Of a stretch of 64,000 nucleotides of DNA, positions 50,335 to 57,638 are shown piece by piece. Both the position numbers and the translations under genes were made by a program. The stretch spans positions 1-64,000 of the forward strand of contig CALUKE010000012.1 in assembly GCA_944321165.1 (NCBI GenBank). The letters are read 5' to 3'. How positions within the stretch are numbered: position 1 is the first letter of the stretch; every line of letters starts with the position of its first letter. The stretch comes from an uncultured Odoribacter sp. Lineage in GTDB: Bacteria > Bacteroidota > Bacteroidia > Bacteroidales > Marinifilaceae. The notes under the pieces are model-generated. The model made no database searches, was not told where the DNA came from, and saw only the letters and a list, made by a program, of their open reading frames with translations.

Positions 50335-50574
50335 ATGCGTCAAATAAAAATATGCTTAGGGAGTTCATGTTATTCACGGGGAAATAATGTCCATCTTGAA
50401 ATCATAAAAAAATACATCGCCGAAAACCATCTGGAAGCAGAAATTTCCTTCTCCGGCCATTTGTGCGAAGAACTGTGTAGCAAAGGTCCCATTCTCCGCA
50501 TAGACGACAAGATCTACCAGGAAGTTAATCTTTCCGGTTTATACAAAATACTTCAGGAAGAATTTCCTGCCTGA
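50335..50574 (+). CDS. Thioredoxin-fold [2Fe-2S] protein, NuoE-like
   Basis: 79 residues. Four cysteines (CLGSSC and, later, CEELC) have the spacing of the NuoE/HoxE C-terminal [2Fe-2S] domain. Such small proteins pass electrons to or from hydrogenases and diaphorases. First gene of the hydrogenase run, 28 bases before the sensory-type hydrogenase. Its partner is inferred from position. Confidence 0.8.
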   Translation: MRQIKICLGSSCYSRGNNVHLEIIKKYIAENHLEAEISFSGHLCEELCSKGPILRIDDKIYQEVNLSGLYKILQEEFPA

Positions 50575-50602
50575 AAATTGTTTTACCTCAATTCGTTAGA
50601 CA

Positions 50603-52330
50603 ATGAACAGAACCATGGATCTAAAACCTATTTACACGGAGCCGGAAAATTGTCAGGACTGTTACAAATGTGTCCGAGAATGTCCGGTAAAAGCGATCCG
50701 AATTGAAAACAACAAAGCTTACATCATTGAAGAACGTTGTATATACTGCGGACATTGTACCCAAGTGTGTCCCACCGGAGCGAAGAAAATCCGGGACGGA
50801 GTCAGTCGGGTACGCCTGATGCTACAAAACCATCCTCGGGTCATCTTATCCCTGGCTCCTTCCTGGGCTTGTGAATTCGAAGATCTGTCGATCCATCAAC
50901 TCATTGCAGCCATTCGAAAACTGGGTTTCTTTGCCGTATCCGAAACAGCGATCGGTGCAGAACTGGTTTCAGCCCGGGTATCTCAATACCTTCAACAGGC
51001 CCAACCCGGCGTATACATCTCCTCCGCCTGTCCTGTCGTTGTGGAATATATCCGGAAATACTCCGTCGAGCATATTCCGGCCATTACCCCCATGCTTTCT
51101 CCCATGCTGACACATGCCCGGATTTTGAAAGACTACTACGGAAACGATTTAAAAATTGTTTTTGCAGGTCCCTGCATCTGTAAGAAACTGGAAGCAGATC
51201 ATTTCAAGGATCTCATCGAAGTCGCCATTACCTTCAAAGACTTGAAAAACTGGTTTGAAAAAGAAAAGATCATTCCCCAGCAATTGACTCCAACAGCTGA
51301 GGATTGCTTCACTCCCTGGCAAGCAGGAATCGGTTCGCTGTATCCCATTGAAGGAGGTATGTTGCCTGGTATCCATGGCGAAGAAAAAAAGATCATCAAA
51401 ATGGCCTTTTCGGACCTGAACAATATCAAAGATGTGATCAAAAATTTAAATACCCGCCATGAGAAAGACACGCTTTTTCTGGAGCTGTTAGCCTGCCGGG
51501 GGGGATGTATCAACGGACCGGCCAAACTCAGCCAGACCTCTTTAGCTGTCAAAAGATACAACATCCAGCGTCAACGGGCCTTACATCCGGAAAGTACAGT
51601 TCCGCCACTGGACCACATCGACGTAACGACCACTTTCCAAGCTCACGACTGCTCAACCAAACAGCATTCGGAGGAAGAAATCAAACAAGCTCTTTCTGCT
51701 GTCGGCAAGAATAGTCCTGAAGATGAATTGAATTGCAGCGGCTGCGGTTACGACTCTTGTCGCGATTTTGCCATTGCCATGCTGGAAGGACGGGCAGAAG
51801 AAAACATGTGTGTCTCCTACATGCGCCGAATCGCTCATGACAAAGCAACTGTCTTGTTACAAAAAATTCCCTCCGGAGTATTGCTCGTCGATAATGAATT
51901 GAAAATTTCAGACATGAACAGCTGTTGTGCCAATCTGCTGGGCGAAGATGTTGCCCTCATATACGAAGCCTCCCCGGGATTACAGGGCATGGAACTGGCA
52001 CAGATCAGTCCTTTTTCCGACCTGTTCAAAACAGTACTCAGTACCGGTAAAGAAATCACAGAGCGTCAAATTCGGGACGGAGACCGAATCTGGCTTTTGT
52101 CGATTTACAACATACAACCGCACCGGTTGGTATTCGGTATTCTTCAGGATCTTCGGGAACCTTATGTACACAAAGAATGGATGCACGAGAAAACCCAGGA
52201 GGTCATCCGCAAATATATGACAACCGTTCAGGAAGTGGCCTGCCTGTTAGGAGAAAATGCCGCCTTTACAGACGCCACTTTACGGGCAATCATGGGAAAT
52301 GACGATAGAAGAATCAAGCAAGAAGAATGA
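50603..52330 (+). CDS. Sensory-type [FeFe] hydrogenase with PAS domain
   Basis: 575 residues. Domains in order: two [4Fe-4S] motifs (CQDCYKCVRECP, CIYCGHCTQVCP); an [FeFe] hydrogenase core with H-cluster motifs SSACPVVVEY, AGPCICKKLEAD and LACRGGCINGPA; an extra Fe-S motif (CSGCGYDSCRDF); then a PAS domain (about 420-530, PSGVLLVDNELKISDMN). The first H-cluster motif lacks the second Cys of the TSCCP form. This layout fits group C sensory hydrogenases, thought to report H2 to a downstream domain. The next gene, a SpoIIE phosphatase, overlaps it by four bases (ATGA). Confidence 0.88.
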   Translation: MNRTMDLKPIYTEPENCQDCYKCVRECPVKAIRIENNKAYIIEERCIYCGHCTQVCPTGAKKIRDGVSRVRLMLQNHPRVILSLAPSWACEFEDLSIHQLIAAIRKLGFFAVSETAIGAELVSARVSQYLQQAQPGVYISSACPVVVEYIRKYSVEHIPAITPMLSPMLTHARILKDYYGNDLKIVFAGPCICKKLEADHFKDLIEVAITFKDLKNWFEKEKIIPQQLTPTAEDCFTPWQAGIGSLYPIEGGMLPGIHGEEKKIIKMAFSDLNNIKDVIKNLNTRHEKDTLFLELLACRGGCINGPAKLSQTSLAVKRYNIQRQRALHPESTVPPLDHIDVTTTFQAHDCSTKQHSEEEIKQALSAVGKNSPEDELNCSGCGYDSCRDFAIAMLEGRAEENMCVSYMRRIAHDKATVLLQKIPSGVLLVDNELKISDMNSCCANLLGEDVALIYEASPGLQGMELAQISPFSDLFKTVLSTGKEITERQIRDGDRIWLLSIYNIQPHRLVFGILQDLREPYVHKEWMHEKTQEVIRKYMTTVQEVACLLGENAAFTDATLRAIMGNDDRRIKQEE

Positions 52331-53508
52331 TGAAAGAATCAGACATATTCATTGAAGTCGACTGTTTTCAGAAAAACAAGGCCGGCAACATCGTTTGCGG
52401 TGATAGCTACATGTGCCAAAAGTTGAAAGAAGAAGACCGGATTATCAGTGTTCTTTCTGACGGACTGGGAAGCGGCATTAAAGCCAGTGTTCTATCGACC
52501 ATGACCGCCACCATGGCCATGAATTACACAGCCATGAATGAAAGCATTCTCCAGACAGCTCTTTCAATCATACATACCCTGCCGAGAGACATGGTCCGGA
52601 AAATCAGTTATTCCACCTTCTGCATTTTCGATATCGACTGTTTCGGCAACACACGGGTCGTTGAATATGAAAGCCCGGCAGTCTATCTCTTCCGCCACGG
52701 TCAGACCATGGATATCAAAAAACAAAAAATCCCGATCGAAAGAGAAGATCTCAGCAATACCTTTCTTTGGGTATCGGAATTCAAGTTGGAAAAAGAAGAT
52801 CGACTGATCTGTTTTTCCGATGGGGTCAGCCAATCGGGAATGGGTAGCAACAACATGCCCTTCGGCTGGGATGACGGAGTTCGCCTCTTTATCGCAGAAA
52901 CCTTGCAGCAACAACCGGAAATCTCAGCAAAAGAATTGGCCCGTAAAATTGTATTGCGAGCAGAGCGTAACGACAATTACCGCTTGCTGGATGATACCAG
53001 CTGTTGTGTCGTTTATCGGCGTACTCCCCGAAATCTACTAATCTGCACCGGTCCTCCCTACGATGAAAAAAAAGACCGCTATCTGGCAGAAAAAGTTAAA
53101 AATTTCAAGGGGAAACGGGTTCTTTGCGGAGGAACAACGGCTAGCATTATCTCGCGAGAATTACAATTGCCGCTGACCGTCAGCATGGAAATCACGGACA
53201 AGGAACTACCGCCCCTTTCATTCATGGACGGCATCGACCTGATTACAGAAGGGATATTGACCCTGAGCAAGGTCGAACGCCTGCTGACCGAAGGCATTCC
53301 TGAAAAAACGCAAGGACCAGCACACGATCTGCTGACACTGATCCAGAACAGCGACAAAATCACCTTTATCGTCGGTACCCGTATCAACGTCGCACACCAG
53401 GATCCCAATCTGCCGGTAGAATTGGAAATCCGGCGGAACGTCGTAAAAAAAATTAAATATTTATTAGAAACGAAATACCTGAAAGATGTAGAAATTAGCT
53501 ATCTTTGA
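52327..53508 (+). CDS. SpoIIE-family serine phosphatase
   Basis: 393 residues. PP2C-type metal motifs are present: VLSDGLGSGIKAS, LICFSDGVSQSGMG and LDDTSCCVVY. The catalytic domain covers about residues 20-230, and a further domain of unknown function follows (FKGKRVLCGGTTASIISREL). SpoIIE enzymes dephosphorylate anti-sigma-factor antagonists in partner-switching systems. Translational overlap with the PAS-hydrogenase suggests that H2 or redox state controls its activity. No STAS-domain antagonist is encoded in the window, though an RsbW-like ATPase is (55299-55709). Confidence 0.86.
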   Translation: MMKESDIFIEVDCFQKNKAGNIVCGDSYMCQKLKEEDRIISVLSDGLGSGIKASVLSTMTATMAMNYTAMNESILQTALSIIHTLPRDMVRKISYSTFCIFDIDCFGNTRVVEYESPAVYLFRHGQTMDIKKQKIPIEREDLSNTFLWVSEFKLEKEDRLICFSDGVSQSGMGSNNMPFGWDDGVRLFIAETLQQQPEISAKELARKIVLRAERNDNYRLLDDTSCCVVYRRTPRNLLICTGPPYDEKKDRYLAEKVKNFKGKRVLCGGTTASIISRELQLPLTVSMEITDKELPPLSFMDGIDLITEGILTLSKVERLLTEGIPEKTQGPAHDLLTLIQNSDKITFIVGTRINVAHQDPNLPVELEIRRNVVKKIKYLLETKYLKDVEISYL

Positions 53509-53573
53509 CGCCCCAAAGTAGCACGCTACACCCAATAACAGGAAACAAGGAATAACCTTTAAACAATCATCCG

Positions 53574-53831
53574 ATGGACAAAATCAAACTGAAATTATGT
53601 GCAGGAACCATGTGCTATGTCATGGGGGGGGCCCAACTAATGGAAGTAGAGGAATTGTTATCCGCAGAAGAGAAACAATACGTAGAAATCACCCTTTCTC
53701 CCTGTCTGCAACGGTGTAACGGCCAAGATACTCCGCCGTTTGCAGAGTTAGACGGAGAAATCATCACTGGAGTCAGCAAAGAAATCCTATTACGAATTAT
53801 AAAAGAAAAATTAAGACATGTTGTACGATAA
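53574..53831 (+). CDS. Second thioredoxin-fold [2Fe-2S] protein
   Basis: 85 residues. Cysteines at about 9, 14, 44 and 48 (CAGTMC, CLQRC) fit a NuoE-like [2Fe-2S] site. It overlaps the following hydrogenase by 14 bases, so the two are translated together. It is not close in sequence to 50335-50574 apart from the cysteine pattern. A dedicated electron partner for the second hydrogenase is likely. Confidence 0.78.
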   Translation: MDKIKLKLCAGTMCYVMGGAQLMEVEELLSAEEKQYVEITLSPCLQRCNGQDTPPFAELDGEIITGVSKEILLRIIKEKLRHVVR

Positions 53832-55233
53832 TTTTGCGATGCTCACCAAACGGGAGTTATTGATCCGGATTGTCAAATTATTGAAAAACGACGAATTAAT
53901 CACAGGACTGAAGTACCTGCCTGTCGAGATGCGTCCACGGAACAAACGCCCGGTGAGATGTTGTATCCACAAAGACCGTTACATTCTCAAACACAAAATC
54001 ATTTCGATACTGGGTTTTGAAATCACGGATGAGGAGATCGACCTGATCCACCTTTCCGATTTTGCACGCATGGCCATGGCCAATAAAAATATGAAGGAAA
54101 ACATCCTTTCCGTGGTACACGAAGCGTGCAGCGCCTGTATCCAATCACAATATGCAGTCACCAATCTCTGCCGGGGATGCGAAGGACGTCCCTGCGTGAT
54201 GAACTGCCCGAAAGCCGCGATTTCTTTTATTAACGGAAAGGCCAGCATCAGTAGCGAAGACTGTGTCAGCTGCGGATTATGCCAGAAGGTATGTCCTTAC
54301 CATGCCATTGTATACACTCCGGTTCCTTGCGAAGACGTCTGTCCGGTAAAAGCCATCAGCAAGGATGCAGAAGGAGTCGAACACATCGACAAAGACAAAT
54401 GTATCTATTGTGGAAAATGTATGCAGGCCTGCCCTTACGGAGCCATTATGGAACGATCCAAAATCATCGATATCCACAAGACTCTCAGCAACCCGAAGAA
54501 AAAAATCATTGCGATTCCGGCTCCGGCCATTTATGGACAATTCAATGCCACACCGGGCCAGGTGCTGGCTGCGATCAAGCAAATCGGCTTCGATGACGTG
54601 ATCGAAGTCGCTCTGGGAGCGGAAATCACGGCTGCCAATGAAGCCAAGGAACTGGAAGAAAAAATGCAGGAAGGACAATCTTTCATGACCACCTCTTGCT
54701 GTCCGGCTTACACCGGCTGGGTAGAAAAACATGCGCCCATGCTGAAGCCCTATGTTTCGGAAACCCGTAGTCCGATGGTTTACGCAGCACGCTATGCCAA
54801 AGAAAAATATCCGGATGCCGAAGTTGTATTTATCGGTCCGTGTCTGGCCAAACGTCACGAAGCAGACTCCGTCGATGAGGTGGATTACGTCATGAGCTTC
54901 GAAGAATTGGGGGCTTTTATGGTTGCCTACGACATCGATGTGTCCAACTGCAGTGAAAAAGAGCTTAACCGGGAAGTGACGAAATACGGTAGAGGCTTCG
55001 CACAGGCAGGAGGCGTACAGGCCGCAGTTGTCAATGCGATCGGTGACAAATATACCAATATCCATGTAGAAGGTCTGGACAAAAAGAACCAGGCATTGCT
55101 AAAAGCCATGGCAAAGAAACCGGAAGCCCAATTCGTAGAGGTTATGGCCTGCGACGGCGGTTGCATCAACGGTCCTTGTTCCCTGGCACCTCTCACTCTG
55201 GCCAAACGGCAGATAAAAAAGGTATTGGAATAA
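53818..55233 (+). CDS. [FeFe] hydrogenase, group B-like
   Basis: 471 residues. The N-terminal region has several Fe-S motifs (CSACIQ, CRGCEGRPCVMNCP, CVSCGLCQKVCP, CEDVCP, CIYCGKCMQACP). The H-domain motifs are TTSCCPAYTGW, IGPCLAKRHEAD and VMACDGGCINGPC. Spacing and the CINGPC ending resemble the group B enzymes common in gut Bacteroidetes, thought to evolve H2 from reduced ferredoxin. Unlike the 50603-52330 enzyme it has no PAS domain and keeps both cysteines of TSCCP, so it is the more likely catalytic enzyme. Confidence 0.9.
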   Translation: MLYDNFAMLTKRELLIRIVKLLKNDELITGLKYLPVEMRPRNKRPVRCCIHKDRYILKHKIISILGFEITDEEIDLIHLSDFARMAMANKNMKENILSVVHEACSACIQSQYAVTNLCRGCEGRPCVMNCPKAAISFINGKASISSEDCVSCGLCQKVCPYHAIVYTPVPCEDVCPVKAISKDAEGVEHIDKDKCIYCGKCMQACPYGAIMERSKIIDIHKTLSNPKKKIIAIPAPAIYGQFNATPGQVLAAIKQIGFDDVIEVALGAEITAANEAKELEEKMQEGQSFMTTSCCPAYTGWVEKHAPMLKPYVSETRSPMVYAARYAKEKYPDAEVVFIGPCLAKRHEADSVDEVDYVMSFEELGAFMVAYDIDVSNCSEKELNREVTKYGRGFAQAGGVQAAVVNAIGDKYTNIHVEGLDKKNQALLKAMAKKPEAQFVEVMACDGGCINGPCSLAPLTLAKRQIKKVLE

Positions 55234-55250
55234 TTCCCGTCAAACAACTA

Positions 55251-55289
55251 AAAAACCTCCGAATTCTCATCCTTTTCGGAGGTTTTTTA
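55251..55289. terminator. Terminator between hydrogenase and RsbW-like gene
   Basis: AAAAACCTCCGAA (55251-55263) and TTCGGAGGTTTTT (55275-55287) form a stem with T-runs on both strands, serving the convergent genes. Confidence 0.9.
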
Positions 55290-55298
55290 TCATCCGAC

Positions 55299-55709
55299 CT
55301 ACCGATCCAGTGCAAAAGACATGACTATTTTGCGTCCTTTATCGATAAAGCGCAATTCATCAGTCAAGGCCGCCATCACATAGATACTCCTGCCGGTCAG
55401 TCCCTCCCGTTCCTTCGACAAGGGACAAGGTGGATGAGTATAATCGAACCCATTGCCACTCTCTTCTATGGTGACCACAATTTTCCTACGATTCTTGACT
55501 GCAGTAAATTTTGCAAATTTTTGTACCGTTTCCCGAGGATCCGGCAACAAGGCATTATAGGACACTTCGACAAGTGCAAGCATAAGATCCGATTGCACTT
55601 TTTCCGGCATTTCAAAAGTTGCAATGATTTGCTCGATAAAACGCTCCACCAAATGCAGATTACTGTAAGACGAAGGGATAGATGTCTCCAATTTATTGAT
55701 CTCTTCCAT
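55299..55709 (-). CDS. RsbW-like ATP-binding protein (HATPase)
   Basis: About 136 residues from MEEINKLETSIPSSYS; the longer reading from 55778 adds 23 residues of no known type. The GHKL ATPase N-box LMLALVEVSYNALLPDP and the G1 box EESGNGFDY are visible, with a later GRSIYVMAALTDEL. This is the fold of anti-sigma serine kinases such as RsbW and SpoIIAB. It is convergent with the hydrogenase cluster that includes a SpoIIE phosphatase, so the two may work in one partner-switching circuit. No sigma or STAS gene is adjacent. Confidence 0.75.
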   Translation of the reverse strand: MEEINKLETSIPSSYSNLHLVERFIEQIIATFEMPEKVQSDLMLALVEVSYNALLPDPRETVQKFAKFTAVKNRRKIVVTIEESGNGFDYTHPPCPLSKEREGLTGRSIYVMAALTDELRFIDKGRKIVMSFALDR

Positions 55710-56138: not shown

Positions 56139-57638
56139 TCACATATACAAATCCCGCTCTCCCGAAGCGATCCGCTTATAATAAGTCAGGAAAGTCGGTA
56201 AAAGCCTTTTTTCTGTAAAGAACGGCATATTTTCAATTTCTTTCAGTTCTTTTTCTATCAACTGTTCTCCGATTCGACGAGTCTCGGCAGAAGCATAATC
56301 GTTGAGGTATTCCCGGAACGTCAGGACCGCATTCAATTTACAGAACTTTCCTTCCACTCCTTTCTCCAGCAAATTCATAATCTTATCGCCCGTCCGACCG
56401 CAACGATAACCGGCCGTGCAGAAGGAAGTGATATAACCGTCCTCCGCCAATTCACGAATCACGGTATCCAAACTGCGTTCATCTCCCAAAGAAAATTGCA
56501 CCTTGTCCGGATTATCCTTTTGTACTTTCTTCTCAGAATAAGCTCCGATACCGATCTTTGAAGAAGCATCAGTCTGGGTACAACCATAACGGATGATCTC
56601 ACGTCTCAATTCCGCTTGTTCCCGGGCCGTGACAATCAAACCCGTATAGGGTACCGCCAAGCGCAACACCATGACCAACCGCTTGAAGGCATCATCTTTT
56701 ACCAGATAAGGCGAATTTTCACTCATGAACGATCCCAAAGCCGGTTGCATTCGCGGGAAAGAAATGGTATGCGGACCAATTCCGAACTGCCGTTCGAGAT
56801 CATGGGCATGGAGAACCAGTCCCATCACTTCAAACCGCCAATCGTACAAACCGAACAGAGCACCGATCGCCACATCGTCTATACCCGCATCCATGGCTCT
56901 ATGCATCGCATACAAACGCCAACGGAAATTTCCTTTGACCGTATTGGCCGGATGCAGTTCGGCATAACGTCCCGGATGATAAGTCTCCTGAAAAACCTGA
57001 TAAGTTCCAATTCCAGCCCGCCACAATTTCCGTAAATTTTCAATACTCATCGGAGCTGCATTGATATTGATACGACGGATATTGTTAAAACCATTTCCGG
57101 TTGGAGTCGTCCGCTTGGTAGCATAGATCGTCTGCATGGTATCGACGATATAGTCGGCATCACTCTGCGGATGCTCACCATACACCGCAATCAAACGTTT
57201 GTGACCTTCATCGATCACAGCCTCCGTTTCTCTCCGAACCTCTTCCATCGTCAGTACATGCCGTTTCTCTGCGGAATTATCACTTCGAAAACCACAATAA
57301 ACACAACTATTTACACACAAGTTGGAACAGTATAAGGGTGCAAAGAAGACAATTCGATTATCATACACCCGCTTTTTTACTTCCAAGGCTGTCTCTCTCA
57401 TTTCCTCCAACAACTCGGGATCTTCCACATTCAACAGTACTGCCGTTTCCTCTGGAGACAGTAATTTTATATCCAAAGATTTCTGTAGAATATCCCGTAC
57501 CTGTTGCTTATCCGGCTGACGGTATTTCTCCAGATTTCCATAAATCGACTCTACATCGATAAAATCCTTGCCATTTACCAGATATTTTTCTATTTCAGCC
57601 GGTTTAATCACCTGCTGAGCCCATTCTTTCACGTTCAT
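56139..57638 (-). CDS. hydG: [FeFe] hydrogenase maturase HydG
   Basis: 499 residues. This radical-SAM enzyme splits tyrosine to give the CO and cyanide ligands of the H-cluster. The SAM cluster motif CVNSCVYC follows the ThiH/HydG-type segment FFAPLYCSNLC. The C-terminal auxiliary-cluster region reads FCTAGYRCGRTG with a later Cys in GKFCKLNA. The usual CxxC there appears as CTAG, with another Cys three residues on, which may be a variant ligand set. hydE and hydF are not in this window. It lies beside both hydrogenases. Confidence 0.9.
   Translation of the reverse strand: MNVKEWAQQVIKPAEIEKYLVNGKDFIDVESIYGNLEKYRQPDKQQVRDILQKSLDIKLLSPEETAVLLNVEDPELLEEMRETALEVKKRVYDNRIVFFAPLYCSNLCVNSCVYCGFRSDNSAEKRHVLTMEEVRRETEAVIDEGHKRLIAVYGEHPQSDADYIVDTMQTIYATKRTTPTGNGFNNIRRININAAPMSIENLRKLWRAGIGTYQVFQETYHPGRYAELHPANTVKGNFRWRLYAMHRAMDAGIDDVAIGALFGLYDWRFEVMGLVLHAHDLERQFGIGPHTISFPRMQPALGSFMSENSPYLVKDDAFKRLVMVLRLAVPYTGLIVTAREQAELRREIIRYGCTQTDASSKIGIGAYSEKKVQKDNPDKVQFSLGDERSLDTVIRELAEDGYITSFCTAGYRCGRTGDKIMNLLEKGVEGKFCKLNAVLTFREYLNDYASAETRRIGEQLIEKELKEIENMPFFTEKRLLPTFLTYYKRIASGERDLYM

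Follow-up and report, generated by a model that had tools for sequence, protein, structure and literature searches.

Sensory [FeFe] hydrogenases have been linked to protein phosphatases before. In Ruminococcus albus, a PAS-type group C hydrogenase and a Ser/Thr phosphatase have already been proposed to constitute a sensor of molecular hydrogen (H2), and expression of the cluster encoding them drops 111-fold when an H2 consumer is grown alongside (PMC6776011). Among sensory hydrogenases, the closest described relatives of the protein considered here are HydS of Thermotoga maritima (PMC10055695) and the group D (M2e) enzyme Tam HydS, whose authors remarked on a flanking histidine kinase-like ATPase (PMC8163306), while a phosphatase of the corresponding type acts in the RsbU/RsbW/RsbV (SpoIIE/SpoIIAB/SpoIIAA) partner-switching system. 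Here we describe a group C hydrogenase, HydS, and a SpoIIE-type phosphatase encoded next to each other in a 64,000-nucleotide stretch of DNA (hereafter 'the window') from an uncultured Odoribacter sp., which is part of contig 12 of a genome of 3.40 Mb in 33 contigs. Our analysis suggests that HydS and SpoIIE probably form an H2/redox sensing module which dephosphorylates a Ser/Thr-phosphorylated regulator, and of which a nearby RsbW-like ATPase (55299-55709) is no part.

The HydS–SpoIIE pair and its neighbourhood

The two genes lie within a run of five on the plus strand, downstream of secDF, in the order [2Fe-2S] protein A, HydS, SpoIIE, [2Fe-2S] protein B and group B hydA (Table 1). The gene overlap between hydS and SpoIIE comprises four bases (ATGA), as had been reported in a preliminary description of this DNA, and its exact length varies among relatives. 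With SpoIIE alone as the query, a search of 198 genomes of the order and 59 genomes of the family detected the phosphatase in 68 and 40 genomes, respectively. Judged by SpoIIE, the nearest named relatives belong to Odoribacter and Butyricimonas. At 41 measured junctions across Bacteroidales, hydS is located directly upstream on the same strand, mostly within ~50 bp and always within ~125 bp. M2f-type HydS is thus tied to SpoIIE at nearly every locus, which makes it plausible that phosphatase activity is linked to H2 or redox state. The proposal of the preliminary description that H2 or redox state is turned into phosphatase activity is hence supported by pairing and architecture, and had already appeared in print, whereas its onward step to the ATPase fails.

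We conclude that the Odoribacter pair is a Bacteroidales member of the R. albus-type sensor/phosphatase pairing. Like the cluster of R. albus 7 (PMC6776011), it combines a sensory hydrogenase of putative PAS type, a Ser/Thr phosphatase and an adjoining catalytic [FeFe] hydrogenase; however, the latter is of group A1 in R. albus and is accompanied there by an alcohol/aldehyde dehydrogenase, whereas in the Odoribacter run it belongs to group B and is joined by two [2Fe-2S] proteins. Protein B and the group B hydrogenase come after SpoIIE in Odoribacter as well as in its nearer relatives; the gene of protein B overlaps hydA, and this position is kept in the family. The gene of protein A precedes HydS at most orthologous loci, and the top PDB match of this protein is the alpha subunit of a bifurcating hydrogenase (7p5h, residues 570-630, E=7.9e-10). 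The TSCCP motif is intact in the translation of the group B hydrogenase. Several genera of the family carry tandem double HydS–SpoIIE pairs (L132-L136), the second HydS of which is much more divergent from the copy in the window.

The preliminary description had envisaged a chain of four genes, with a second hydrogenase and the RsbW-like ATPase following HydS and SpoIIE. Its coordinates, its second hydrogenase (matching TIGR04105), its SpoIIE phosphatase and the HATPase_c_2 nature of the ATPase are all borne out; the run comprises in fact five genes, including two thioredoxin-like [2Fe-2S] proteins that had been left undescribed, and the ATPase lies outside of it. Being encoded on the minus strand and convergent with the run, the ATPase does not 'follow' in an operon. 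When the four genes are traced across Bacteroidales, HydS and SpoIIE stay together whereas the ATPase joins them at no other mapped locus. A simple promoter scan yielded a number of sites not above that in shuffled sequences.

Table 1. Features at the HydS–SpoIIE locus and a related operon elsewhere in the genome (positions refer to the window unless a contig, C, or locus, L, is given)
Feature	Position	Strand	Evidence or remark
Thioredoxin-like [2Fe-2S] protein A, NuoE C-terminal type, four Cys	50335..50574	+	PF01257 E=1.7e-6
HydS, group C (M2f) [FeFe] hydrogenase	50603..52330	+	PF02906 (Fe_hyd_lg_C) E=3.9e-44; PF04060; PAS_8 sub-threshold
SpoIIE/PP2C phosphatase, residues 1-232, with C-terminal domain 233-393	52327..53508	+	PF07228 E=1.2e-14
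Thioredoxin-like [2Fe-2S]/DUF1450-like protein B	53574..53831	+	PF07293 E=1.9e-5 and PF01257 E=6e-4, both below cut-off
Group B monomeric [FeFe] hydrogenase, hydA	53818..55233	+	TIGR04105 522.7 bits, cut-off 450
Bidirectional intrinsic terminator in the gap between hydA and the convergent ATPase	55249..55289	.	15-bp hairpin, -19.7 kcal/mol, z=-6.9
Lineage-specific RsbW-like HATPase (HATPase_c_2)	55299..55709	-	PF13581 E=1.9e-11
HydG, H-cluster radical SAM maturase, convergent neighbour	56139..57638	-	TIGR03955 457 bits
Group D operon on contig 1	C1 ~406990-415000; L013:4988-8936; L078		ATPase at C1:407364-407774

The putative sensor and its phosphatase

HydS exhibits the architecture of group C (M2f): two N-terminal [4Fe-4S] ferredoxin motifs, the H-domain, a Cx2Cx4Cx16C cluster (C378, C381, C386 and C403, invariant across 45 aligned sequences) and a PAS-like C-terminus, an arrangement likewise found in T. 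maritima HydS (PMC10055695). All four ligands of [4Fe-4S]H are present (C143, C191, C298 and C302). The residue equivalent to the proton-transfer cysteine C299 of CpI is A142, so that the motif reads S-S-A-C-P instead of T-S-C-C-P; in the 45-row alignment this position is occupied by Ala in 21, Asn in 8, Lys in 6 and Cys in 3 sequences. About 43% of sensory enzymes have Ala at this position, among them T. maritima HydS (TmHydS), which is catalytically active and the activity of which is lowered when the Cys is put back (PMC10055695). A142 is therefore no argument against turnover: it is a marker of the sensory subclass, for which it is normal, and not a proof of sensing. The loss of one TSCCP cysteine had thus been recognized correctly in the preliminary description, while sensing rather than turnover does not follow from it. 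The two proteins also share Gly at the position of M353, but differ at that of M497, where Odoribacter HydS has Leu, as does Tam HydS, and T. maritima HydS has Ser. Moreover, unlike the latter, Odoribacter HydS belongs to a module of Bacteroidales and has a group B hydrogenase encoded nearby.

The intact set of H-cluster ligands, the activity of TmHydS with the same substitution (PMC10055695) and the adjoining [2Fe-2S] proteins, which could carry electrons, would also fit a low-activity catalytic HydS that feeds these small proteins, with the phosphatase acting on a target unrelated to H2. Given that the pairing with the phosphatase is near-invariable, that HydS has a PAS-like domain, and that the pairing survives where H-cluster ligands are lost, we consider such a role quite unlikely.

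Several points weigh against HydS and SpoIIE constituting an H2/redox sensing module: (i) the PAS_8 match of HydS itself (E=0.0099) is below the curated cut-off of Pfam, (ii) the AlphaFold model of HydS, with a predicted local distance difference test score (pLDDT) of 50, is too poor for use, (iii) the C-terminal cluster of the group D enzyme TamHydS is not reduced by H2 (PMC13104023), (iv) five HydS homologues at SpoIIE loci lack at least one H-cluster cysteine, so that some members cannot sense H2 via the H-cluster, and (v) the literature found yielded no demonstration of an H2 response, of a contact between HydS and SpoIIE, or of a substrate. As for the first point, in a HydS alignment of 20 members PAS_8 is matched by 10, PAS by 8 and PAS_9 by 6 (best E 5.8e-8), and the C-terminal PAS domain assigned previously is hence acceptable as a putative one on the strength of the homologues, even if sub-threshold in the present copy. 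The cysteine-deficient homologues beside SpoIIE are found at L080:8551-10464(-), L147:9231-11159(-), L140, L145 and L152, and those at L080 and L147 have lost all four H-cluster cysteines. Judged from their sequences, these proteins may sense a signal other than H2.

The phosphatase itself has intact catalytic residues. The Asp residues of its metal site (26, 45, 165 and 222/223) are kept across ~45 homologues, and its AlphaFold model (pLDDT 75) shows the SpoIIE-type fold and matches B. subtilis SpoIIE (5mqh) with a TM-score of 0.72 by target length. A second domain, of alpha/beta type and highly conserved, spans residues 233-393 (window 53023-53505). It bears the motifs GGTT, TEG and GTRxNxAHQDP and is also found in the examined HydS-linked SpoIIE copies. 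This domain is undescribed: Pfam assigns no family to it in the window copy and no recurrent family in 36 homologues, which gave scattered weak matches only, and a PDB profile search yielded nothing convincing. A relation to the DeoR-effector (ISOCOT) or the SIS domain, considered in view of the GGTT motif, was likewise rejected, since profile comparison was unsupportive (probabilities of 0.5% and 3.3%, respectively).

The convergent ATPase and candidate kinases

The preliminary description had proposed that the signal is relayed from HydS via SpoIIE and a STAS antagonist encoded elsewhere to the RsbW-like ATPase at 55299-55709. The ATPase gene is indeed only 1.8 kb from the SpoIIE gene, the protein keeps Glu48 and Asn52 of the N-box, and a candidate for the STAS antagonist exists: at C2:83710, unlinked to the module, the genome encodes one stand-alone STAS protein, which may carry a phospho-serine. 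However, the ATPase gene is on the opposite strand, beyond a strong bidirectional terminator with A and T runs on the flanks of its hairpin that fit both directions of transcription. No ATPase is found beside SpoIIE in the congeners G247, G243, G244 and G242, the SpoIIE proteins of which are 91, 88, 82 and 80% identical; ATPase matches in these genomes, where there are any, are 32-34% identical and located at other places, and in G247 and G243 (L121 and L122) convergent hydG comes next after hydA, with no ATPase gene in between. Among the 198 genomes of the order, that of the window alone has such an ATPase and SpoIIE on one contig with no more than 350 kb between them, and such ATPases are not associated with HydS–SpoIIE (odds ratio 1.7, p=0.10). 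Furthermore, the G1 box reads ESGNG versus DEGEG in paralogues (D to E), and the G2 box TGRSIYVM versus [AT]GRGLYLM (G to S). Lack of conservation of the ATPase gene near SpoIIE had been named beforehand as speaking against the relay, and this is what we observe, congeners included. We thus regard the relay as highly improbable. Strand, terminator, lack of conservation beside SpoIIE and altered G1 and G2 boxes together rule out the ATPase as part of the module.

Where, then, does this ATPase belong? Within 395 genomes of the class, no close relative of more than 35% identity was found outside its own genome, and the top match in the family is 38% identical. Most homologues found represent one different orthologous gene, placed in the order EnvC-ATPase-YbeY-MnmG. 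Sequence and distribution make a lineage-specific additional copy the most likely reading of the ATPase at 55299-55709. The RsbW-like ATPase of the EnvC-ATPase-YbeY-MnmG order is conserved across Bacteroidales, and the genome has its own copy at C3:216870-217271 (L012:5874-6278). A further RsbW-like paralogue at C1:547464 (L075:6465-6860), 38% identical to the window ATPase, has lost the N, G1 and G2 boxes; its gene is an orphan that lies downstream of tsaD and of a gene for a hydroxyacid dehydrogenase. In G214 (L156, L157), extra RsbW-like ATPase copies adjoin an IS30-like transposase and a phage-type integrase, which suggests that orphan copies are mobile.

Since the genome encodes, apart from the stand-alone STAS protein, a Cache-HAMP-SpoIIE protein on C1, components of partner switches do exist, yet none is linked to HydS–SpoIIE. 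At the search sensitivity used, STAS homologues were detected in 20 of the 68 genomes with HydS–SpoIIE, and no candidate for a sigma factor or other target of a kinase is linked to the module. Comparison with RsbU/RsbW/RsbV thus reveals a SpoIIE/RsbU-type PP2C phosphatase, and STAS and RsbW-like proteins elsewhere in the genome; the conserved module differs in being devoid of a linked kinase or STAS protein and in the additional C-terminal domain of its phosphatase.

A better kinase candidate than the ATPase at 55299-55709 is predicted on contig 1, where an operon encodes, in this order, a DRTGG protein, an RsbT/RsbW-like ATPase, a group D-like sensory hydrogenase, a second DRTGG protein, a PHP protein, a HATPase, and NuoF-like and bifurcating hydrogenase subunits. 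The hydrogenase is the homologue of Tam HydS (PMC8163306) in this genome; it has no PAS domain and is located at a different locus from HydS of the window, beside the bifurcating hydrogenase and an RsbT/RsbW-like ATPase with canonical, intact N, G1 and G2 boxes. ATPases of this type occur in 49 of the 68 genomes with HydS–SpoIIE and in 14 of the 130 that lack it, an odds ratio of 21 before any correction for phylogeny. In eight genomes no more than 11 kb separates them from SpoIIE, and in two of these (L141, L142) they are immediately downstream and co-directional.

These findings raise the possibility of two opposed H2-linked arms acting on one target, with the group D hydrogenase and the contig 1 ATPase as the kinase arm and HydS–SpoIIE as the phosphatase arm, which extends the sensing module by naming a kinase. 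The operon with its domains is present in the same genome, the ATPase boxes are canonical, and co-occurrence and proximity point in the same direction; yet the co-occurrence test ignores shared ancestry and may mirror the mere possession of [FeFe] hydrogenases, SpoIIE is found without a contig 1-type ATPase in 19 genomes, the two loci are on different contigs in Odoribacter, and the kinase activity is only predicted. Hence, we rate this arrangement as unlikely. Its generalization, that anaerobes might operate an H2-gated push-pull in which group D hydrogenases with RsbT/RsbW-like kinases oppose group C hydrogenases with SpoIIE on one regulator, the phosphorylation of which reads H2, is to be viewed as unlikely.

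Proposed signal relay and its implications

The sensing module favoured here would operate as follows. H2, or a redox state set by H2, would alter the H-cluster and the Fe-S clusters of HydS, and the C-terminal end of HydS, with its [4Fe-4S], PAS and helical parts, would pass the change on to the PP2C phosphatase, the translation of which is coupled to that of HydS. The phosphatase would then dephosphorylate a Ser/Thr-phosphorylated regulator encoded elsewhere and may in this way adjust how strongly fermentative hydrogenases are expressed, the group B enzyme of the same run among them. The gene order of the module, its conservation, its domain make-up and its intact catalytic residues are directly observed, and it is H2 sensing, the contact between HydS and SpoIIE, the substrate and the regulated genes that we infer.

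For signal relay by putative sensory [FeFe] hydrogenases, a 2026 study of group D calls finding the interaction partners critical (PMC13104023). To the pairing proposed for R. albus, the present analysis adds its near-invariable occurrence across the order, an undescribed phosphatase domain, the exclusion of a neighbouring ATPase and a testable kinase candidate. In Bacteroidales, the near-invariable association of HydS with SpoIIE suggests that group C hydrogenases have the phosphatase as their partner, and the operon combining a group D hydrogenase with an ATPase offers a candidate for the kinase, while the ATPase at 55299-55709 is dropped as a misleading one. Finally, since the group B type of hydrogenase has been reported to drive most H2 production in the gut (PMC12578642), the locus places the putative sensor HydS right beside a hydrogenase of the type linked to gut H2 production.

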